Of a stretch of DNA of 41,359 nt, positions 14,064-38,271 are shown in pieces. Every line of letters begins with the position of its first letter. Within the stretch, counting starts at the first letter, position 1. The stretch is from a virus, in the IMG/VR virus record IMGVR_UViG_3300004181_000001, positions 1-41,359 of that record. One strand, given 5' to 3'. Made by a program: the position numbers and the translations under genes. The notes beneath the pieces are model-generated. The model searched no databases. It saw only the letters and a program-made list of their open reading frames with translations, and had not been told where the DNA came from.

Positions 14064-14100
14064 ATTATTAGCCATTGGATTAACACATGTCAATAGCCAT
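14064..14100 (-). promoter_or_regulatory. Promoter-operator of the Cro-like gene
   Basis: On the minus strand: -35 TTGACA (14093-14088), an 18-base spacer, and -10 AATAAT (14069-14064). ATGGCTATTGACAT and TAATCCAATGGCTAATAAT flank a 4-base variable core. The same 37-base arrangement, identical except for the 4-base core, is at 15421-15457. The ATGGCTA repeats 25 bases apart overlap -35 and the spacer/-10, so a repressor bound there would block transcription. Confidence 0.75.
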
Positions 14101-14117
14101 TAGCGAATTCCAAAGAT

Positions 14118-14139
14118 TAGCCATTGGAAATCCAATGGC
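14118..14139. promoter_or_regulatory. 20-bp palindromic operator at the repressor start
   Basis: GCCATTGGAAATCCAATGGC (14120-14139) is a perfect palindrome and overlaps the likely repressor start codon. It contains the same TAGCCATTGG half-site as the promoter-operators at 14064-14100 and 15421-15457, so the repressor or Cro protein probably autoregulates here. Confidence 0.65.
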
Positions 14140-14527
14140 ATGGATGCACACCTCCGCTGAAACCCGCCGTTTGCGCCTCGAAATGCTTGTCAAGAGCCAT
14201 GGCTCTGCGGCCTCACTAAACACCGCTTTAGGTTGGTCCCGAACTGACCCAAAACTAGCCCAGATCCGCAACGCAAACATTCGTCCTGGCCGGGCAAAGC
14301 CCTATCAAATGGGCGACGCGATGGCGCGTGAAATTGAAATTAAACTTGGACTCGAGCACGGCTGGATGGACACGCCACCGACCTATGCAGAGCTACACGG
14401 CGAAAACGATCCGCGCACCAAGGCCATGGCGCTGATGGAGGCCCTTCCGCCTGATCAGTGGGACACGGCGCTACGGCTTATTGATGCGCTTGCGAAACCA
14501 GCCAAGAAAAACGGAACCGATGATTAA
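14135..14527 (+). CDS. Phage repressor (CI-like, without peptidase domain)
   Basis: About 130 residues from MAWMHTSAETRRLRLEMLVK. The N-terminal HTH (RRLRLEMLVKSHGSAASLNT, then ALGWSRTDPKLAQIRN) and the segment GDAMAREIEIKLGLEHGWMD match the DNA-binding region of many phage repressors; the C-terminus (MALMEALPPDQWDTALRLID) is a short helical oligomerisation-like region. No LexA-like peptidase domain is present, so induction would not be by RecA-stimulated self-cleavage. The start is uncertain: ATG 14087, 14135 and 14144 are all in frame and none has a Shine-Dalgarno site. It diverges from the Cro-like gene over shared operators. Confidence 0.7.
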   Translation: MAWMHTSAETRRLRLEMLVKSHGSAASLNTALGWSRTDPKLAQIRNANIRPGRAKPYQMGDAMAREIEIKLGLEHGWMDTPPTYAELHGENDPRTKAMALMEALPPDQWDTALRLIDALAKPAKKNGTDD

Positions 14528-19214: not shown

Positions 19215-20800
19215 GCACCCCCACCTACACCCAGGCCGTGCAGGCCACGGCCCAACGAATCTTCGAACGCGTCCAGGGCTGGAACACCGCCACCATCGGC
19301 TGGCAGGACAACATCCCCGGCGACTACGAACGCGCCAGGGAAGCGCACGACCTCAAATGCATGGACCTGATCGCGCAGGACATTGCGGAGTTTGCCAGCC
19401 AGGCGCCTGTCGCTTCACCAGCGAAGTCGGTGTATCTGGTAGCTACTGGCGTGCACCACGAAGGCGAAGAAACCTACACCCGGCACGATGCCTGCCCACC
19501 CATGTGCGATGCCGAGAAGCTCTACACCATCCCTGCTGGCGCCGATGCCGGCACGGCAGAGCCACCGATTCACATCTGGAAGGACGGTTACGACGTAGGC
19601 AGGAAGGGCGGCCTGAATGCGCCAACCATGAACGAGAACACCGCCAATCTCGTTCTACGGTTTTCCGACGCCCTGCGCGAGAAACTGGCCGCAGCCGAGC
19701 AGAAATACGGCTATAGCGACGGCTGGATGTCGCCCGACTGGATGGACGAATGTCGCGCCGAGCTGGTGGAGCACGTCGCCAAGGGCGACCCGCGCGACGT
19801 GGCGGCGTACTGCGCGTTCCTGTGGCATCACGGCGAAAGCACTACCCCTGTGCCCGGTGGTGCTGGTGGCGATGTGGGGGCGAAAGCCCCATGCCGGCCG
19901 CTGGAGACTGCGCCGAGGGATGGCACGATCATCAGGCTCTTGGTCGATTTTGAGGATCACCGGCTTGAGGACAGCGAGCATCCTCAGTGGACCATCGGCG
20001 GCAACAGTTTCGACAACACCGGCGTGGACGAATGGCAGTTCGCGGGCTGGAGCTGGGAGCAGGACTGTTTCTGTGAGGGCACCGGCAAGGTCATCGGCTG
20101 GGAGCCTTTCGCCACCCCTGCGGCTTCTGTTCCTGCGGGGGGTGAGGTGGACATGCGCGCCATCTGCGAGGCGTTAGGCTTTGACCCGGAGAACCACCAC
20201 AACGCGGCTCGCTGCCCCTACTGCACGCCACCCAAGCAGGATGCCGCACCAGTGGCCGTAGAGGCGCCCGAGAAACGGGAAGTCTGGAATTTGCTGCATG
20301 AGTGGCGAGAAACGCAAGACACGGAGCGGGCCGACTGGATAGAGCATCGCGTTGATGAATTGATGCGACTCGCCGCCACTCTACCAGTGGTGCAGCCCAC
20401 CCCTGCGCTGGATGGCGGGGATGCGCGACCACTGAAGGACCTGCCGAAGTCTGAATTGCAGCTTGAGTTGCATTTGCGGAGCGGTCCGGTCTATCAGTGC
20501 CAAAGCCCATCATGCCGCTCATACGAAGACCGGGTGGGGAAATGGGACACCTGCCCCTCGTGTGGCCTCAAAGGCTTTCTGAGCGGCAGCTTTGTGCTGA
20601 ACAAGGGGAGTGCCGAGTACAAGAACTGGGAGGCTCGCGTATTCAAACAACACCGCGCCGCCATTCCCGTCAGCGCCAGCCCTGCAACTGCCGCCACCCC
20701 CCACGGCGTCCGCTGCCACAACGACGCCTGCGCCGGCGGCCAGCTGCAATGCCCAACCCCCGAGGCCTGCGGCGTTGTCGCACCACACCACCCCGTCTGA
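19211..20800 (+). CDS. Multi-module early protein with zinc ribbon, unknown function
   Basis: A 529-residue protein. The N-terminal module (residues about 1-60) is typical of small phage accessory proteins. Around 230-300 comes PLETAPRDGTIIRLLVDFED to WEQDCFCEGTGKVIGWEPF, resembling DUF551-type phage modules ('TAPRDG...W'). Around 355-390 is a short helical module, and about 430-450 a zinc ribbon (CQSPSCRS and CPSCGLKG). The mosaic look suggests fusion of several small phage modules. The function is unknown. Confidence 0.55.
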   Translation: MSTPTYTQAVQATAQRIFERVQGWNTATIGWQDNIPGDYERAREAHDLKCMDLIAQDIAEFASQAPVASPAKSVYLVATGVHHEGEETYTRHDACPPMCDAEKLYTIPAGADAGTAEPPIHIWKDGYDVGRKGGLNAPTMNENTANLVLRFSDALREKLAAAEQKYGYSDGWMSPDWMDECRAELVEHVAKGDPRDVAAYCAFLWHHGESTTPVPGGAGGDVGAKAPCRPLETAPRDGTIIRLLVDFEDHRLEDSEHPQWTIGGNSFDNTGVDEWQFAGWSWEQDCFCEGTGKVIGWEPFATPAASVPAGGEVDMRAICEALGFDPENHHNAARCPYCTPPKQDAAPVAVEAPEKREVWNLLHEWRETQDTERADWIEHRVDELMRLAATLPVVQPTPALDGGDARPLKDLPKSELQLELHLRSGPVYQCQSPSCRSYEDRVGKWDTCPSCGLKGFLSGSFVLNKGSAEYKNWEARVFKQHRAAIPVSASPATAATPHGVRCHNDACAGGQLQCPTPEACGVVAPHHPV

Positions 20801-20813
20801 CCGAAAGCCCGCC

Positions 20814-23081
20814 ATGAAAGAATTTTCCCAATCCACGGGCGAAGCCTTGCCCGCCGACACCCACACCGACGCCGGCGAAGAGTTCACCCGCATGGACAGG
20901 CGCCTGCTGGTGCCCAGCCTCACCAACCGCCCGCCCATCGCGCTTGAAAAGCTGCAAGCCATGGCCGCCACCATGGCCGGTGGGCGCGGCGTGCGCCAGG
21001 CGCTGATTGTTCGCCCCCTGCCTGGCGCCCGCGTGCCCGACACGCGCCTCAACACCCCCAAGGGCCAGCCGCTGCCCACGCACGAGATCGTCTGCGGTGA
21101 GCAGCGCTGGCTGGCCGCCGGCCTGGCACAGGTTAAAGACCTGCCCGTCATCGTGCGCGACCTGTCCGACGCCCAGGCACTCGAAGAGCAGTTCATTGAA
21201 AACTTCCAGCGCCAGAACTTCACCGAGCTCGAAGAGGGCGAAGGCTTCCAGCGCCTCATGCAGCACAACCACCTCACCGCCGACCAGGTGGCCGCCAAGG
21301 TGGGCTGCAGCCGCCGCCACGTGTTCAACCGCATCAAGCTGCTCGACTTGCGCATTGAAGCCCGCAAGGCCCTGCTGGCCGGCGACATTGACGCCACCCG
21401 CGCCCTGCTGCTGGCCCGCATCCCTGACCACACCCAGCAGCTCAAGGCCCTGCCCCTGCTCAAAAAGCACGAACACACCGGCGAGTTCACCCTCACCGTG
21501 CGCCAGGCAACAGACACGCTTGAGCGCGACTTCATGCTCGAGCTCAGCAAGGCCCGCTTCAAGATCACCGACATCACCCTGGTGCCCGAGGCCGGCAACT
21601 GCATGGAATGCCACAAGCGCACCGGCCACAACCCCGACCTGTTTGCCGACATCAAGGGTGCAAACATCTGCACCGACCCGCCCTGCTACCAGCGCAAGCA
21701 AGACGCCTACGAGACCCGCGTGATGCAGGAAGCCCACGCCAATGGCCAGACCGTCATCACCGGGCGCGAGGCCAAGGCCCTCATGCCCAACAGCTTTGGC
21801 GGCATTGAAGGCTTTTTGCGGCTCGACGACGCCAAAGACAGCCCCACCGACAAACCCCTGCGCAAGCTGCTGGGCAACCTGCTGGAAAAAGACGACATCA
21901 AGCCCACGCTGGTGGAAAACCCACACCAGAAAGGCGACCTGATCGCCGTGCTGCCCGCGCAGACAGTGCGCGACCTGCTCAACAAACGCGGCCATAAAGT
22001 CGCTGCAGCCCTGCTTGAAACCCAGAACACCGCCGACAGCAAAGCCCAGGCCGAAGCCGACAAGGCGCGCGACAAGGCCGACAAGATCCACGCCTACGAG
22101 CAGGGCTGGCGTGACGAGGTGCTGGCCCAGACCTACGCGCTGATCTGCGCCGGCCCGCACAAAGGCCAGGAAGACTTGTCCGACGAAGTGCTGCGCATCA
22201 TCGCCAGCCGCCTCGCCAGCCAGGCCAATGGCGAGCAGACCCGCCAGCTGTGCGCCTTGCTGGGCCTGGGCAAGATTGCCCCGCGTGAGGCGCTGGCTGA
22301 CCATTGCCGCACAGCCAGCCAGCCCGAGCGCCTGGTGCTGCTGCTGGTCATGCACCACGACGTCGCCTTCAAAGACTTCCAGCCCGACCCCGCCGCCACC
22401 AACCCGGGCCTGCTGCAGGTCGCCAGCGACTACGGCATCGACGTGGATGCAGTGCAGGCCGGCGTCAAGCAAGCCATGCGCGCCAAAACCGGCAGCAAAG
22501 TGCAGGCCCCCGACGCCGTTTCCGCTGACTTGCCACCCCAGGGGGGAGGGGGGGCCAAGCCCAAGGCAGCCGCCCCAACCCGCAAAACCAGAACATCAGC
22601 AGCCGAAGCCAGTCAAGGCATCGCTGCCGCGATGCAAGGCATTGAAGCGTCGGCACATGCCGACGCGGGCAACCTGAGCGATGTCGAAGGCATGACGCCC
22701 GAGCTGATTGCCAAGCTGAATAAAGCCGGTGTCGCCACCCGTGACGACCTGGCTGAACTGGCCTTGGAGGAACTCACGGAGATCACAGGCCAGTCCGAGG
22801 CCGAGGCCAAGACCCTGATCATGACCGCGCGCGCACATTGGTTCGCCGACGATGCCGCCGCGCCCGTCAACGCCGCCGGCGGCACACCGCTGGCGGTGGG
22901 CCTGCAGGTCACCGTCACCAGCGACACGGACCGCTTGGGCATGACCCAGCAGCGCTTCGCAGGCAAGCGCGGCCACATCACCAGGCGCGAAGACGGCGGC
23001 GGCTTCTGGGACGTCACCTTCAAAGGCCGCACTGGCGGCGTGGCGATGTTTGCCGAAGAACAACTGTCGCAGGCCGCATAA
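20814..23081 (+). CDS. ParB-like protein (PRTRC type) with C-terminal HhH and KOW-like domains
   Basis: A 755-residue protein from MKEFSQSTGEALPADTHTDA. The N-terminal ParB fold shows CGEQRWLAAGLAQVKDLPVI (GEQR about 95-98) and EEQFIENFQRQNFTELEEGE, then an HTH at about 155-176 (TADQVAAKVGCSRRHVFNRI). A Cys cluster (NCMECHKRTGH, ICTDPPCYQ) lies near 260-290. A helix-hairpin-helix-like module is at about 620-680 (VEGMTPELIAKLNKAGVATR) and a KOW/SH3-like end at about 700-755. It resembles PRTRC-system ParB proteins. No ParA partner is present, so a role in partition is doubtful; it may act as a DNA-binding or CTPase regulator. Confidence 0.75.
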   Translation: MKEFSQSTGEALPADTHTDAGEEFTRMDRRLLVPSLTNRPPIALEKLQAMAATMAGGRGVRQALIVRPLPGARVPDTRLNTPKGQPLPTHEIVCGEQRWLAAGLAQVKDLPVIVRDLSDAQALEEQFIENFQRQNFTELEEGEGFQRLMQHNHLTADQVAAKVGCSRRHVFNRIKLLDLRIEARKALLAGDIDATRALLLARIPDHTQQLKALPLLKKHEHTGEFTLTVRQATDTLERDFMLELSKARFKITDITLVPEAGNCMECHKRTGHNPDLFADIKGANICTDPPCYQRKQDAYETRVMQEAHANGQTVITGREAKALMPNSFGGIEGFLRLDDAKDSPTDKPLRKLLGNLLEKDDIKPTLVENPHQKGDLIAVLPAQTVRDLLNKRGHKVAAALLETQNTADSKAQAEADKARDKADKIHAYEQGWRDEVLAQTYALICAGPHKGQEDLSDEVLRIIASRLASQANGEQTRQLCALLGLGKIAPREALADHCRTASQPERLVLLLVMHHDVAFKDFQPDPAATNPGLLQVASDYGIDVDAVQAGVKQAMRAKTGSKVQAPDAVSADLPPQGGGGAKPKAAAPTRKTRTSAAEASQGIAAAMQGIEASAHADAGNLSDVEGMTPELIAKLNKAGVATRDDLAELALEELTEITGQSEAEAKTLIMTARAHWFADDAAAPVNAAGGTPLAVGLQVTVTSDTDRLGMTQQRFAGKRGHITRREDGGGFWDVTFKGRTGGVAMFAEEQLSQAA

Positions 23082-23126: not shown

Positions 23127-23741
23127 ATGAACGCAAAAGCAACCCCAGCCGCAGCCCTGCCTGCAACCATCGGGGCCGCCTACGAAGGCGGCTTCTACGG
23201 CGGCCAGATCCGCATGGGCGCGGCGATCTTCGCCGTGTGCTGGGCACCCAAGGCCCAAGGCGATATCAAAGGCCCATGGCTGCCCAGCCACACCGGCGTG
23301 CCGGGCGCCTGCAGCTACTTCGACAGCGCCGCCAACACCCAGGCTATGGCCGACGCCGGCAGCCCGATCGCCAAGCAGGTGCTGGCGCTCGACATCGACG
23401 GTGTCTCCGGCTGGAGCATCCCGGCCCGCGACGTGCTGGAGCTGGCCTACCGGCACCTCAAACCCACCGCGGAAGAAAACTACGTCCACCGCAGCGGCGA
23501 CAACCCCAGCAGCGTGCCGGCGGGCTACCCCTACACAGAAGACTCCCCAGCAAAGACCACGGTCGAAGCCTTCCAGGAGGGCGGCGCCGAAGCTTTCGAA
23601 GATGCCTGGTACTGGTCCAGCACGCAGTACTCGGACGACAGCGCCTGGGGTCAGACCTTCTACTGCGGCGGCCAGGGCTACGGCAGCAAGAGCTACGAGG
23701 GGCGTTGCCGAGCCGTCCGCCTGATTCAACTCAGCACTTGA
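23127..23741 (+). CDS. DGR target protein 1 (DUF1566/C-type-lectin fold)
   Basis: A 204-residue protein from MNAKATPAAALPATIGAAYE (CAGGAG eight bases upstream). The C-terminal part WYWSSTQYSD...AW.Q.F, then KSYEGRCRAVRLIQL, is the hallmark of DUF1566-type C-type-lectin-like folds used as DGR variable proteins. The last 35 residues are encoded by VR1 (23622-23720). GWSIPARDVLELAYRHLKP upstream is also typical of the family. No signal peptide or membrane segment is seen. Codons matching the TR AAY positions now read Asp, Ser, Gly, Thr, Tyr, Cys, Gly, Gly, Tyr, Gly and Ser. It probably acts as a ligand-binding protein with a hypervariable surface. Confidence 0.88.
   Translation: MNAKATPAAALPATIGAAYEGGFYGGQIRMGAAIFAVCWAPKAQGDIKGPWLPSHTGVPGACSYFDSAANTQAMADAGSPIAKQVLALDIDGVSGWSIPARDVLELAYRHLKPTAEENYVHRSGDNPSSVPAGYPYTEDSPAKTTVEAFQEGGAEAFEDAWYWSSTQYSDDSAWGQTFYCGGQGYGSKSYEGRCRAVRLIQLST
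23622..23720 (+). repeat. DGR variable repeat 1 (VR1)
   Basis: It aligns without gaps to TR (offset 1223) for 99 bases. 83 are identical and 16 differ, every one at a TR adenine: TR positions 24860, 24864, 24872, 24873, 24879, 24884, 24887, 24888, 24893, 24894, 24899, 24900, 24902, 24905, 24906 and 24909. All eleven AAY codons of the TR are altered. The shared 3' end GAGGGGCGTTGCCGAGCCGT is the likely IMH region. Confidence 0.95.
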
Positions 23742-23773
23742 ATCCTTCAATTCTTTAACTCTGAAAGTTCACC

Positions 23774-24283
23774 ATGGATGCCACCATCAGCATTGATCTT
23801 CAACTGACCGAGCGCTCGCGAATCCTGCTCGACGCACTGGCCAAAGCGTTGCCGCCGCGCGTCGTTGCACCGGCGCCAGACGACGCCGTGCAGACAACTG
23901 CACAGCCCGACAACGGCTTCCTCAAAATCGGGCAGCACTCTGCGGACGTAGGCGGCATTTACGCCGGCATCGCGCGCGGCCTGGACGGCGAAGCCGATGG
24001 CCACCTATATCTCCTCGACGACAAGCCCACCACGGAACTGGCATGGGCGGCCGCCAAAGAATGGGCAAACGGCCTGGGCAACGGCGCCCGCCTGCCCACC
24101 CGCTTCGAAAGCGCCCTGCTTTACGCCAACCTGCAGGACAAGTTTGAAAGCGGCTGGCACTGGACCGGCACGCAGTACTCGGACAGCGGCGCCTGGCTTC
24201 AGGACTTCGGCAACGGCGACCAGAGCACCGGCGGCAAGAGCTACGAGGGGCGTTGCCGAGCCGTCCGCAGATTAGCCCTTTAA
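23774..24283 (+). CDS. DGR target protein 2 (DUF1566/C-type-lectin fold)
   Basis: A 169-residue protein. Residues 1-30 (MDATISIDLQLTERSRILLD and following) form a short helix that may mediate oligomerisation. Residues about 45-169 are DUF1566-like: GLDGEADGHLYLLDD, then AWAAAKEWANGLGNGARLPT, then WHWTGTQYSD...W.Q.F and KSYEGRCRAVRRLAL. The C-terminus is encoded by VR2. It lies 32 bases after target 1, and the two differ in their N-terminal halves, so they probably recognise ligands in different settings. No export signal is seen. Confidence 0.88.
   Translation: MDATISIDLQLTERSRILLDALAKALPPRVVAPAPDDAVQTTAQPDNGFLKIGQHSADVGGIYAGIARGLDGEADGHLYLLDDKPTTELAWAAAKEWANGLGNGARLPTRFESALLYANLQDKFESGWHWTGTQYSDSGAWLQDFGNGDQSTGGKSYEGRCRAVRRLAL
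24170..24273 (+). repeat. DGR variable repeat 2 (VR2)
   Basis: It aligns to TR (offset 675) over 104 bases with 15 differences, all at TR adenines: 12 A to G, 2 A to C, 1 A to T (TR positions 24861, 24863, 24864, 24872, 24873, 24878, 24884, 24885, 24893, 24900, 24903, 24905, 24906, 24908, 24909). Ten of the eleven AAY codons are changed; the codon at 24887 is still AAC. It extends about five bases further than VR1 at the 3' end (CAGATT). Confidence 0.95.
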
Positions 24284-24303
24284 CCCTTTAATCCTTTCGA
24301 GCC

Positions 24304-24672
24304 ATGACACTGCACACTGACCTGCCGATTTACAAGACGGGGCGCGACTTGGTCGCCCTCGCCTTCAACGTGCAGCAGCAAATGCCGCGAAGCTTCAAGC
24401 GCACCCTGGGCGAGAAGATCACCGTGCACTGCTGCGACATGCTGGACTTGATGGCGCTGGCCAACGCCTCGCGCGGGCCGGATCGCGCAGTGCACATCCG
24501 CACTCTGCTGCAGCGGCAGCACACCACCACCGTGCTGCTGCGCGTCTGCCACGACATGCGCTTTATCTCGCACAAGGTCTGGGCAGAATCCATCGTGCTG
24601 CTCGACAGCATTGGCAAGCAGGGTGGCGGCTGGCTCAAGTCATCGCACCACAGTAAAGCGCCTGCAGCATGA
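24304..24672 (+). CDS. avd: DGR accessory variability protein (Avd-type)
   Basis: A 122-residue protein. LPIYKTGRDLVALAFNVQQQ, then MPRSFKRTLGEKI, then LMALANASRG and LLRVCHDMRFISHKVWAESI match the four-helix-bundle Avd/bAvd family, also related to 23S rRNA intervening-sequence proteins. Avd forms a basic pentamer that binds the reverse transcriptase and TR RNA and is needed for mutagenic homing. The Arg/Lys-rich surface, for example RSFKR, fits RNA binding. It sits between the second target gene and the TR, its usual place. Its TGA overlaps an ATG (ATGA) that opens the reverse transcriptase frame. Confidence 0.85.
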   Translation: MTLHTDLPIYKTGRDLVALAFNVQQQMPRSFKRTLGEKITVHCCDMLDLMALANASRGPDRAVHIRTLLQRQHTTTVLLRVCHDMRFISHKVWAESIVLLDSIGKQGGGWLKSSHHSKAPAA

Positions 24673-26045
24673 CGGTCAAGTCCATCATGCCCGTGCGCAA
24701 TTTGAATCTGGTTGTGCCGCTGGCCCACAAGGCCACCGCCATGCGCACCACGGATACCGCTGCGCCACCGCAGGCCAGGTTCGGCGCAGTTACCCCGCTG
24801 ATCGGCGCAAGCCTTCGGCAGGGCGACGTAGATAGCACATCACGACGCAGTACTCGGACAACAACGCCTGGAATCAGAACTTCAACAACGGCAACCAGAA
24901 CAACAACAACAAGAGCTACGAGGGGCGTTGCCGAGCCGTCCGCAGATTCATTGCCCTACGCATTCGAGGACCTGCTGCAGGCCTACCTCGACTGCCGCGC
25001 CACCAAGCGCAACACCGCCAGCGCGCTGGCGTTTGAGGAGCGGCTCGAGGCCAACCTGATCACCCTGCACCATGAGCTGCAGGGCGGGCACTACCGGCCC
25101 GGCCGCTCCATTTGTTTTGTGATCACCCGGCCCAAGCCGCGCGAGGTGTGGGCGGCAGAGTTTCGTGACCGCATCGTGCACCACCTGCTGTACAACGCCA
25201 TCGCCCCGCGCTTCATCGCCAGCTTTGACGTTGGCAGCTCCGCCTGCATCCCGGGCCGGGGCACCCTGTACGCTGCACAGCGCCTGGAGCACGGCGTGCG
25301 GTCAGTCACACAAAACTGGAACCGGCCAGCCTTTTACCTGAAGATGGATCTGGCCAACTTCTTTGTGGCCATCGACAAAGCCACAGTGCTGGCCCAGTTG
25401 GCCCGCAAGGTGACAGAGCCCTTTTGGCTGGATCTGGCGCGCACCATTCTTTTCCACGATCCGCGCAGCAACGTCGAGGTGCGCGGCAATGCCGCCCTGC
25501 TAGCCCGCGTGCCGGCGCACAAAAGCCTGTTCAACGCGCCGGCAGACACAGGCCTGCCGATCGGCAACCTGAGCAGCCAGTTCTTTGCCAACGTGCACCT
25601 GGACGCGCTTGACCAGTTCTGCAAGCACAAGCTCAAGGCCAGGCACTACGTGCGTTATGTCGACGACTTCATCCTGCTGCACGAGTCACCCCAGCACCTC
25701 AACCAGGCGCTGCAGAAAATCACCGCCTGGCTGCCCGAACGGCTGGGCGCCCACCTGAACCCCAGCAAGACCATCCTGCAGCCCGTGGAGCGTGGCATTG
25801 ACTTTGTGGGCCACGTCATCAAGCCATGGCGCCGCACCACCCGCAAGCGCACCCTGACCACCGCTGCCACCCGCCTGCAAGCCATGCCGGCAGAAGACGT
25901 CTACGCGGCCAGCAACAGCTACCTGGGCCTGCTGCGGCAGGCCACCCACAGCCACACCGACCGCGCGCGCCTGGCGAATGTCCTGCGCGATCGCGGCCAC
26001 GCCGTCAGTGGCGATTTGACCAAGATTTTCAGGAAGGCAGCATGA
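24669..26045 (+). CDS. DGR reverse transcriptase
   Basis: The open frame is 458 codons; the conserved domain begins near codon 95 (SLPYAFEDLLQAYLDCRATK), just after the TR. RT motifs: FVITRPKPREVWAAEFRDRI and HHLLYN; YLKMDLANFF (motif A, about 223-232); GLPIGNLSSQFFANVHLDAL (DGR-type SQ, 295-304); YVDDFILL (catalytic Asp pair, 330-337); LNPSKTILQP and GIDFVGHVIKPW. The enzyme copies TR RNA with adenine infidelity. The start is unclear: ATG 24669 overlaps the avd stop and reads through the TR, and there is no ATG between codon 25 and codon 225. TTG 24951, directly after the TR, would give 364 residues, a normal DGR RT length. Confidence 0.93.
   Translation: MTVKSIMPVRNLNLVVPLAHKATAMRTTDTAAPPQARFGAVTPLIGASLRQGDVDSTSRRSTRTTTPGIRTSTTATRTTTTRATRGVAEPSADSLPYAFEDLLQAYLDCRATKRNTASALAFEERLEANLITLHHELQGGHYRPGRSICFVITRPKPREVWAAEFRDRIVHHLLYNAIAPRFIASFDVGSSACIPGRGTLYAAQRLEHGVRSVTQNWNRPAFYLKMDLANFFVAIDKATVLAQLARKVTEPFWLDLARTILFHDPRSNVEVRGNAALLARVPAHKSLFNAPADTGLPIGNLSSQFFANVHLDALDQFCKHKLKARHYVRYVDDFILLHESPQHLNQALQKITAWLPERLGAHLNPSKTILQPVERGIDFVGHVIKPWRRTTRKRTLTTAATRLQAMPAEDVYAASNSYLGLLRQATHSHTDRARLANVLRDRGHAVSGDLTKIFRKAA
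24845..24948 (+). repeat. DGR template repeat (TR)
   Basis: It begins ACGCAGTACTCGGAC and ends GCCGAGCCGTCCGCAGATT. In the frame used by the targets it reads T-Q-Y-S-D-N-N-A-W-N-Q-N-F-N-N-G-N-Q-N-N-N-N and then KSYEGRCRAVR. It has eleven AAY codons (ten AAC, one AAT), the classic set-up for adenine mutagenesis without stop codons. It is preceded by an in-frame TAG in that frame, so it is not translated as a target protein. It lies between avd and the RT domain. Confidence 0.95.
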
Positions 26046-35244: not shown

Positions 35245-38200
35245 TCAATATCCTTGAAGGGTTGCGGTTACGGTGCCGTTGACGGCGCTATTGGTGTCGT
35301 CGCGTGTGGTGACGGTGCGCGTGGCGCGGTTTTCAATGCGTGCTGTGCGCGCGGTGCCGCCATCGGCCACCAGGGTCAGGCCGATCTCCACATGGCGCCA
35401 TGTCTTGGCAGTGGGGATGACGGTGCCGCCTGCCAGAACGCTGACCAGGCCGACGTTTTCAAACTGGTCTTCAACATCGAGGCTGAATGCCAGCGCCGAG
35501 ATCACGCCTTGAACATCACGGCTTTGAATGGTGACTTGCGCCTCGTAGCGGCCGCCCTGGGCCACGACGGAACCGGGCCATGGCCGCCAGGCCTCTACGC
35601 TCCAGGCCGGGTCGTCGTCATTGGTCCAGCCGGGCTCTGTGTCGCCGGTCCAGCCGGGCGCGTCGCCGTCCCTTCGGTACTCAATCAGGTAGGCGGCGCC
35701 GGCGATTTCATTGGGCAGCGTGAGCTGGGCGCCTGCGTCTGCATCGTCAACAATAAACACGTCGGGCCGGTACGTGACCGCACCGTAGGTGTCCAGCGAC
35801 CAACCAGGGTCGCTGTCCAGCGTCCAGCCCGCAGTGTTGGGGTTCGGGTCCCAGGCCAGTGGCGAAGCGTCAGCCGTAGCCACCAGGTTGCCGCCAACCA
35901 CCGTGGCGCCGGTGTAAACGCCCGGCCAGCTTGCCGCCTTGTAGTCATACGCCAGGATGACGTTGGCCACCAAAGGGTCGCCCAGGTTGATGACTGAAGC
36001 GGCTACATTGCGCGACTCATTGCCAAGTGGAAACTCAGGACTTTGCGACGTGTCGAAGGCCTTGATCATGAATGTGGCCGTGACCGTGGGCCGGATCTGG
36101 ATCATGTAGGGCCCGCCCGGCAACAGCCCGGTGTGCAGCGGCGTGGCATCGCCCCAGCTGCGGTTGTTGCCTGGCTGCCAGCGGATCTGGAAGCCCGCCA
36201 GATCCGGCACGCCGGTCATGGTGGGCCAGCTGGCCAGGCCGTCCAGCGCCACGGCGAAGCTGCTCACGTCAGGCGGCCGCTCAGTCTTGCCGATGACGGT
36301 GTGGCTCACCACCGGGCACCAGTCCCCTTGGCGCCCCTGCCCAGTGACGCAGCGCCCGCGAAACAGCATCAAGTCGCGGTCCACCAGCTCGCCGGTGAAT
36401 ATTTCGACATCGCCCCCGGGAACGGCCGCCAGGGTGGTCCAGTCGTCGCTCAGCACGGTAGCACTCTTGTGTTGCCATTCGACCTTGCCGCCCTGCCGCA
36501 CGTAGCTGTTGGTGATCTGATCCCAGCGCACGCGGGCGCGACTGATCACGGTGCCATCGCCAAGCACCTTCAGGACGGCGGTGCCGCTTTCAATCTGCAC
36601 GCCAGTTGGCACGGGGATGGTGGACACATCGGGCAAACTGGTGTTAGGAATGTCCACCCCGGCGCCAGCCATGGCGTAGTTCCAGTTCCACACCTCGGGG
36701 CCGGTTTCCTGCAGCACATAGACGAGCGTGTTGTTTTCAAACTCGCGGCGCAGGTTGGTAAACACCTTGTTGGCGTAGCCCAGCCGCGCCAGGTTGACAT
36801 TGACGGTGTGCAGCGGCGCGCTGTCATAGCCTTTTAGTGTGGTGCCCAACTGCAGGGTGAGTGGCTGTCGCGCGCGGGCCAGCCGCTGCCAGGCAATCAT
36901 CTGGCAACGTGCCGGCTCATTGACCAGCTCGAAGTTGACCTCGGCCGGCAGCAGCTCGTCGCCGTCTTGCGCCTGGTAGACATCGCTGGTCACCATGTCA
37001 TAAGCCATGCGGGTGTAGCCGGCATAGACGTTCACAAACGTGCCCTTGACAGCGTTGAAGAGGTCGCGCTTGGCGGTGCGCGGCGCCACGGTGATGCCGG
37101 CGCCAGACAGTGTGTCCTCGTTGATCTCCAGCGTGGGTTCTCTGTAATAGCCAGCGATGATCTGCCATTGCCCACTGATCCACACGGCGTCGCCGTCCAT
37201 GGCGTCGAGGATGTGGTTGAGGTTGTCCAGCGGGCTGGCGGCGCTGGTGAGTTGGCCGTTGGCCTGGTAACGCTGGTCTAGCCTGGTCGGGCTGAAATAG
37301 AGTCCCTCGTCACACACATTCGCGCTTGCCAGCAATTCCCCGGCATGCACCTCTGCATGAAGCGTTTTCGGAGCAAATCCACTGTTTACCATCAACCAGC
37401 GAGCCAGCAGCGCTGGATTGCGGGTCCACGCCGTGGCATCGAGCCGGGGATCGTAGGCCCTCACGCCACGCGTCACGGCGCTGATGTTGGGCACGCCGAT
37501 CTGGCCTAGGATGTTGTAGTCGGCCTCCATCACGCAAGTCACGTAGCAAATGCCAGTGCCCTTTCGGCTGGCGTCCCAGGCACCCGGAATGCCGGCAGCC
37601 GCCGCCGCGGCTATAAGCTCGGGAGCGGCGGCCTGACCAGGTGAGCCCAGGTACTTCCTGATGTAGAACAGCGGCTGCGTTTCCACCACCGTGTAGTTCA
37701 CATTGGTGAAGGTGGTGTAGACGGGGTTCTCGCCACCTTGCGTCATGGCCATCACGACCGCAGTGCTATCTATGCGCGTCGGCGTGCGAGACAACACTAC
37801 TGGTTGCCCCTCCGGGAAACTTTCGCTGTAAGTGTTGCTAATGACGCGCACGTACTTGGCCGGCGCAATCACCGCGCCGCTGCCGTCCAGCGTGACCGGC
37901 TCATGGTTGAACATGATGGTTTCAATGGCGTCGCACTCATGCCCGGCCAGCACCACCCCAAAGGCGTGGAAGTTGCGCAGCGGGCCGTAGGTAAACCAGC
38001 AGGCCAGCGGGCCGCTGGCCTCGTCGCGGCCCAAAATGATGTTGCGCGGCTGGATGGCGCTGCGGATCACCGTGGTGCGGTCTACCAGCCCGGCGTTGAA
38101 AGCGGCGCGCTGCTGTTCGGCGGCGGCGCGCTGGGCTGCTTCGGCCTTCTTTTGCGCGCGATTGGCCATGGCGCTGCTGATGGCAAATGACGCCACTGCA

Positions 38201-38271
38201 AACACAATCTGTCCAACCGTGATGGTGCCAACCACTACGGTGCTGAGGGCGACTGCAATTGCTGCCGGCAT
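35245..38271 (-). CDS. Tail tip / host-specificity protein (J-like)
   Basis: A 1008-residue protein. The N-terminal hydrophobic segment (VVVGTITVGQIVFAVASFAI, about 10-35) and an Ala/Gln-rich coil (RAQKKAEAAQRAAAEQQRAA) are followed by tail-hub-like domains and fibronectin-like repeats to the C-terminus. Size and place fit gpJ-type tail proteins, which bind the host receptor and close the tail tip. The stop at 35245 lies one base before the fibre start. Confidence 0.8.
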   Translation of the reverse strand: MPAAIAVALSTVVVGTITVGQIVFAVASFAISSAMANRAQKKAEAAQRAAAEQQRAAFNAGLVDRTTVIRSAIQPRNIILGRDEASGPLACWFTYGPLRNFHAFGVVLAGHECDAIETIMFNHEPVTLDGSGAVIAPAKYVRVISNTYSESFPEGQPVVLSRTPTRIDSTAVVMAMTQGGENPVYTTFTNVNYTVVETQPLFYIRKYLGSPGQAAAPELIAAAAAAGIPGAWDASRKGTGICYVTCVMEADYNILGQIGVPNISAVTRGVRAYDPRLDATAWTRNPALLARWLMVNSGFAPKTLHAEVHAGELLASANVCDEGLYFSPTRLDQRYQANGQLTSAASPLDNLNHILDAMDGDAVWISGQWQIIAGYYREPTLEINEDTLSGAGITVAPRTAKRDLFNAVKGTFVNVYAGYTRMAYDMVTSDVYQAQDGDELLPAEVNFELVNEPARCQMIAWQRLARARQPLTLQLGTTLKGYDSAPLHTVNVNLARLGYANKVFTNLRREFENNTLVYVLQETGPEVWNWNYAMAGAGVDIPNTSLPDVSTIPVPTGVQIESGTAVLKVLGDGTVISRARVRWDQITNSYVRQGGKVEWQHKSATVLSDDWTTLAAVPGGDVEIFTGELVDRDLMLFRGRCVTGQGRQGDWCPVVSHTVIGKTERPPDVSSFAVALDGLASWPTMTGVPDLAGFQIRWQPGNNRSWGDATPLHTGLLPGGPYMIQIRPTVTATFMIKAFDTSQSPEFPLGNESRNVAASVINLGDPLVANVILAYDYKAASWPGVYTGATVVGGNLVATADASPLAWDPNPNTAGWTLDSDPGWSLDTYGAVTYRPDVFIVDDADAGAQLTLPNEIAGAAYLIEYRRDGDAPGWTGDTEPGWTNDDDPAWSVEAWRPWPGSVVAQGGRYEAQVTIQSRDVQGVISALAFSLDVEDQFENVGLVSVLAGGTVIPTAKTWRHVEIGLTLVADGGTARTARIENRATRTVTTRDDTNSAVNGTVTATLQGY

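Follow-up and report, generated by a model that had tools for sequence, protein, structure and literature searches.

The template and its two targets

The viral record IMGVR_UViG_3300004181_000001, a stretch of 41,359 nucleotides (nt) that was analysed at full length and is called the window here, carries a diversity-generating retroelement (DGR) at positions 23127 to 26045. Two target genes (T1 and T2), the accessory gene avd, one template repeat (TR) and the gene for a DGR-type reverse transcriptase (RT) follow one another in contiguous head-to-tail order, and all features of the cassette are on the plus strand. The original prediction, made from the sequence alone, had placed a complete two-target DGR at these positions, and both its content and its coordinates proved right. 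Its account of the cassette did not include a structured RNA, RT-15 (Rfam RF03018), which spans 24656-24847 and forms the 5' leader of the TR RNA. Comparison with related loci suggests that the window holds a working DGR of an RT-15 lineage in which, we infer, synthesis of complementary DNA (cDNA) is probably primed from this leader.

TR was aligned at 24845-24943 with the first variable repeat (VR1, 23622-23720), and the 99 bases contain 16 mismatches, all of which fall among 34 TR adenines. The match with the second variable repeat (VR2, 24170-24273) extends along TR to 24948, giving 104 bases with 15 mismatches, all among 36 TR adenines. All 31 mismatches therefore agree with the earlier claim that both VRs equal TR except at adenines; the 99 common bases also stand, with the amendment that the VR2 match runs 5 bases further. 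The chance of every mismatch falling on an adenine is 2e-9 for VR1 and 1e-8 for VR2. TR has 11 AAY codons in the target frame, which corresponds to a diversity potential of 15^11, or about 9e12, combinations. It is located inside the open RT frame, a feature that had gone unmentioned, and a search of the 41,359-base record for a third VR found none.

For comparison, we used 166 related loci from IMG/VR, bacterial genomes and GenBank phages, which represent the nearest relatives of the RT rather than DGRs at large. The hosts of this lineage are Burkholderiales, Pseudomonas and some other proteobacteria. A search of public phages for homologous cassettes had been suggested along with the prediction, and such cassettes were found in Cruim01, QDWS, Magia, LPPA56, Haboob and phPA-G. 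Among the 156 relatives with more than 2 kb of upstream sequence, a first scan detected two VRs in 127 and three in 14. Four more records, initially scored as VR-less, have two or three VRs once TR is sought further from RT, which brings the number with multiple VRs to 145 of 156. Having one TR serve two targets is the norm for elements of this lineage, and the idea that a single TR feeding two targets is much less usual had to be abandoned. Published precedents point the same way: multi-VR elements make up about one-seventh of the DGRs surveyed, according to one study (PMC3521204), and 28.6% in another (PMC6642488), and phage DGRs with two targets have already been described (PMC10743442). 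Among the three-VR members (L032, L045, L047, L106, L108, L110, L120, L143, L145, L153, L170, L181 and L182), some VRs lie several kb from the cassette, which suggests that targets can be added at a distance.

A helix between the RT-15 leader and the template end

RT-15 was detected in the window by cmscan with a score of 178.9 bits (E = 1e-43; gathering cut-off, 82 bits), and in all 12 family loci that were scanned with Rfam it immediately precedes TR on the 5' side and stops where TR begins. In BPP-1 and BalMu-1, the Rfam RNA (Phage_DGR and RT-14, respectively) is 3' of TR.

Covariation and counts on the RT tree point to a long-range helix that joins this leader to the far end of the template. 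The 5' strand, TTGAATCTG (24702-24710), is inside RT-15 and is the proposed priming segment, and the 3' strand, CAGATTCAT (24943-24951), is at the TR 3' boundary and also appears in the single-sequence minimum-energy fold. The two strands are complementary in the window except at the outermost pair. Pair 24704-24949 occurs as all four Watson-Crick types, is 98.5% paired over 137 loci and ranks third in strength of covariation across the whole region, RT-15's own helices included. In alignment A1, 92.6% of helix cells are paired, compared to 17-46% in slid registers, and the helix has 41 two-sided changes versus 9.3 in shuffles. The RT tree gave 23 double-compensatory changes in the helix and 0-4 in slid registers. 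Homology between TR and VR1 stops at 24943, which is the first helix pair. Next to the helix, an invariant G at 24711, the putative priming ribonucleotide, faces the invariant G24942 (G/G in 137 of 137 loci). The literature searched contained no mention of this pairing between RT-15 and the end of TR, and nothing was found there on RT-15 in DGRs or on DGR priming from a 5' RNA.

We considered whether the element could instead be an ordinary BPP-1-type DGR, with its priming spacer hidden in the coding start of RT and with RT-15 acting only as a binding or regulatory leader. Each of RT, Avd, TR and VR has a homologous counterpart in BPP-1, and a 7-base match that we found in BPP-1 between the spacer (48-54) and TR (123-129), just before the priming A56, has the same priming logic. 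However, the median distance from the TR end to the RT core is 12 nt in the family, compared to 39-318 nt in 12 other phage DGRs, and a structured 3' spacer with a primer, as in BPP-1, was looked for and is essentially absent. Codon usage at the RT start showed no extra synonymous constraint, and nothing thus points to a spacer within the gene itself. In four records, which comprise two sequences that were each seen twice (L105/L010 and L107/L020; Polaromonas/Rhodoferax elements), TR stays with RT-15 but is about 1 kb from RT. Moreover, RT-15 contains the only segment that was found to covary with the 3' end of TR. We therefore regard an ordinary BPP-1-type arrangement as unlikely.

The helix could also function mainly as a switch that controls RT translation by masking the RT start, rather than as a priming helix. 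In the window, an ATG that overlaps the avd stop codon (ATGA) begins the RT frame, which stays open across RT-15 and TR (24669-24953). In addition, 106 of 165 loci have no ATG, GTG or TTG between TR and the RT core, indicating that translation of RT begins within TR, upstream of it or at a non-canonical codon. TR may thus have a second role as the start region of RT, which in many members may begin within TR itself. We rejected, as a feature of the family, the idea that TR is conserved as coding sequence for an N-terminal extension of RT: only 75 of 165 loci, under half, have an open frame through RT-15 and TR, and the conserved signal is that of RNA structure. The helix itself is kept, with a C-G variant pair, in L105/L010 and L107/L020 despite the distance of about 1 kb between TR and the downstream RT, and it is therefore not simply a device of RT-translation control. 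Its position also coincides exactly with the end of the homology between TR and VR1, where cDNA would be expected to start. A translation switch thus appears slightly less probable still than a hidden spacer, and we favor priming from the RT-15 leader.

Adenine-only variation and target-site signals

In the VRs of the family, 3998 of 9510 TR adenines differ (42%) compared to 58 of 21,550 other bases (0.3%). The VR finder penalises non-adenine mismatches and thereby inflates this contrast somewhat, though the matches still run full length, about 100 nt. Six close but non-identical pairs of loci with identical TRs have 180 VR differences at adenines and 1 elsewhere. Many non-adenine changes in related genomes, the outcome that had been named beforehand as speaking against the prediction, were thus not seen. 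The isolated phages Haboob and phPA-G have cores that are 99.3% identical and the same TR, and their VRs differ at 12 and 13 adenines and at no other base. Because close relatives show adenine-only VR change, the DGR of the window is very likely active. One trio of loci has identical or near-identical cores, with one VR of L122 matching L081 and the other matching L083. This pattern corresponds to VR exchange between two prophages or to an assembly chimera, and the trio was set aside as proof of independent VR turnover because of the possible chimera. The record consists of one metagenomic contig and shows each VR in one state, but a decayed or silent passenger whose VR differences are mere relics is highly improbable, given the intact open reading frames (ORFs), the catalytic YVDDF, the lack of non-adenine drift in VR1 and VR2 and the active-looking VR turnover in close relatives.

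Both window VRs are followed by tracts of octamers that repeat at a lag of 8: CTTGAATC CTTCAATT CTTTAACT after VR1 (23737-23760) and CTTTAACC CTTTAATC CTTTCGAG after VR2 (24278-24301). At least two in-phase 8-nt repeats, approximately CTTNANYC, were found in 213 of 247 VR flanks versus 2 of 247 shuffled flanks, and most tracts start 9 nt past the last VR base. The repeats occur after TR in 0 of 136 flanks and in 0 of 12 control DGRs. In the window, the stop codon of each target lies within the first octamer of its tract or overlaps with it. The octamers are a possible target-site signal. The 12 controls do have a weaker excess at lags 7-8 (0.37 and 0.34 versus 0.27), and short-period repeats may be a wider DGR feature that is strongest in this lineage. 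In these controls (L091-L102), a weak 7-8 nt periodicity lies between the VR and the hairpin, for example as ATCTG repeats in BalMu-1 and FP_Lagaffe. We discarded the idea that the octamers are copies of the RT-15 priming segment, as octamer base 4 does not track the RT-15 base.

Guo et al. proposed that a GC-rich GRNA-loop hairpin downstream of the VR is a conserved DGR requirement (PMC3240598). The same test found this hairpin in 10 of the 12 control DGRs and in 5 of 264 family VRs, with neither window VR among them. Another hairpin, which follows VR1 in the window (GATTCAA/TTGAATC), is not common to the family.

We propose that the Avd-RT complex would bind the RT-15 leader and that the helix would close TR into a loop, thereby bringing G24711, just 3' of the priming segment, beside the TR end. 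RT would then start cDNA at or next to the G that follows UUGAAUCUG in RT-15 and copy TR towards RT-15, misincorporating opposite adenines. The mutated cDNA would replace VR1 or VR2, and the octamer tracts 3' of each VR, in place of the BPP-1 hairpin, would mark the target side. Besides the bias of the VR finder, several points weigh against this proposal. Towards its outer end, the helix has some pairs that are broken in 10-30% of loci. The single-sequence fold of the RT-15 and TR region is no more stable than shuffles (z = -0.72), and support for the helix accordingly rests on covariation. In addition, the function of the targets is deduced from fold alone. The more general model, in which a widespread lineage of Pseudomonas and Burkholderiales phage DGRs combines 5'-RNA priming through the helix with octamer target recognition, and one template serves several targets independently, has about an even chance of being correct in our judgement. 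The comparative data give good support to the view that this lineage is a new DGR variant, set apart by the layout of its RNA and by its target-site signals.

The start of DGR cDNA and the finding of targets are known essentially from one element, BPP-1. A large lineage with its RNA on the other side and no target hairpin could separate what is essential to DGRs from what is particular to BPP-1. It could also yield a compact template RNA that is usable away from the RT gene and for several targets, with application to the directed evolution of binding proteins.

Cassette proteins, neighborhood and relation to known systems

The targets had been described as DUF1566-like, and both are Lcl_C/DUF1566 proteins, a domain that is the commonest DGR target in published surveys. 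T1 (23127-23741; 204 amino acids) contains VR1 at its C-terminus and matches Pfam Lcl_C with an E-value of 1.2e-5, a match that falls short of the curated cut-off, and phrog_4245 with an E-value of 3e-29. Its AlphaFold model has a predicted local distance difference test score (pLDDT) of 86.8, and its fold matches, to 4eps and to the Lcl C-terminal domain 8q4e, are weak (E = 3e-3). T2 (23774-24283; 169 amino acids) consists of a short N-terminal helix and an Lcl_C/C-type-lectin domain with VR2 at its C-terminus (Pfam Lcl_C E = 3e-4; good model confidence, pLDDT 89.6). The best Foldseek match of T2 is the Legionella Lcl C-terminal domain 8q4e (E = 1.9e-6; template modelling score 0.72 by target). 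Thus, both VRs are at the C-terminus of a C-type-lectin-like fold, with T2 matching the Lcl C-terminal domain and C-type lectins and T1 matching more weakly. Judged from these models, T1 and T2 are probably small C-type-lectin-like binding proteins with variable faces. In relatives from Burkholderiales, it is the first target gene that encodes a T1-like protein, and in those from Pseudomonas it is the one nearest to avd.

Avd is encoded at 24304-24672 (PF22296 bAvd, E = 1.2e-10; phrog_3206 'Avd protein of DGR', E = 1e-23). The RT ORF extends from 24669 to 26045, with a conserved core from about 24954 (RVT_1, E = 5e-14; phrog_1423, E = 2e-108), and its translation contains the IGNLSSQ and YVDDF motifs that mark DGR RTs. 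A retron-type RT was not indicated, with the retron_St85 model scoring 43 bits against a cut-off of 235.

The window cassette sits after a ParB-domain gene and a nucleotide kinase, with head and tail genes on the other strand, including a J-like fibre at 35245-38271. The long ORF directly upstream of the cassette (20610-23081) has ParB N-terminal and helix-turn-helix domains and a C-terminal helix-hairpin-helix domain. In Magia, Cruim01, QDWS, LPPA56, Haboob and phPA-G, the cassette is found among early, recombination and integrase genes, whereas most control phage DGRs adjoin tail or baseplate genes. The targets are therefore encoded among early and nucleotide-metabolism genes and are not obviously tail fibres. 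A repressor homologue at 14087-14527 and the presence of relatives in contigs of bacterial chromosomes make it plausible that the phage is temperate, as described, but the window ORFs that were scanned included no integrase.

The closest known systems are the phages with Rfam RT-15 named above and Pseudomonas and Burkholderiales prophages, which belong to the same lineage as the window. They have in common RT-15, two VRs, adenine-only mismatches and an early-region location, and with no fundamental difference between them the window is a new member. It also resembles the 'group 3' DGRs of Schillinger, in which TR overlaps the end of the RT ORF, and multi-VR DGRs, in that TR lies in an annotated RT frame and serves two VRs; the accessible text of that survey does not treat a 5' RNA, the helix or octamers (PMC3521204).

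The BPP-1 DGR (mtd/avd/TR/brt) has a homologous RT (34% identity to Brt; tblastn 1e-37) and Avd, TR before RT, adenine-specific mutagenesis, a C-terminal VR in a C-type-lectin-like target and a match between the TR 3' end and a priming RNA segment. Its cDNA starts at an adenine in the 3' spacer (PMC12875486). BPP-1 has one tail-fibre target beside tail genes, a structured RNA 3' of TR and a post-VR hairpin, whereas the window has two small targets among early genes, RT-15 on the 5' side, no 3' spacer, no hairpin and octamer tracts. Retrons are similar by analogy only, in that the template they copy is preceded on its 5' side by a structured RNA, within which priming is proposed; in contrast to retrons, the window has a DGR-type RT with Avd and adenine-mutagenic copying from TR to VR. 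By this analogy, the RT-15 helix looks like a BPP-1-like priming device in which the priming RNA has been shifted to the 5' side, as in retrons.

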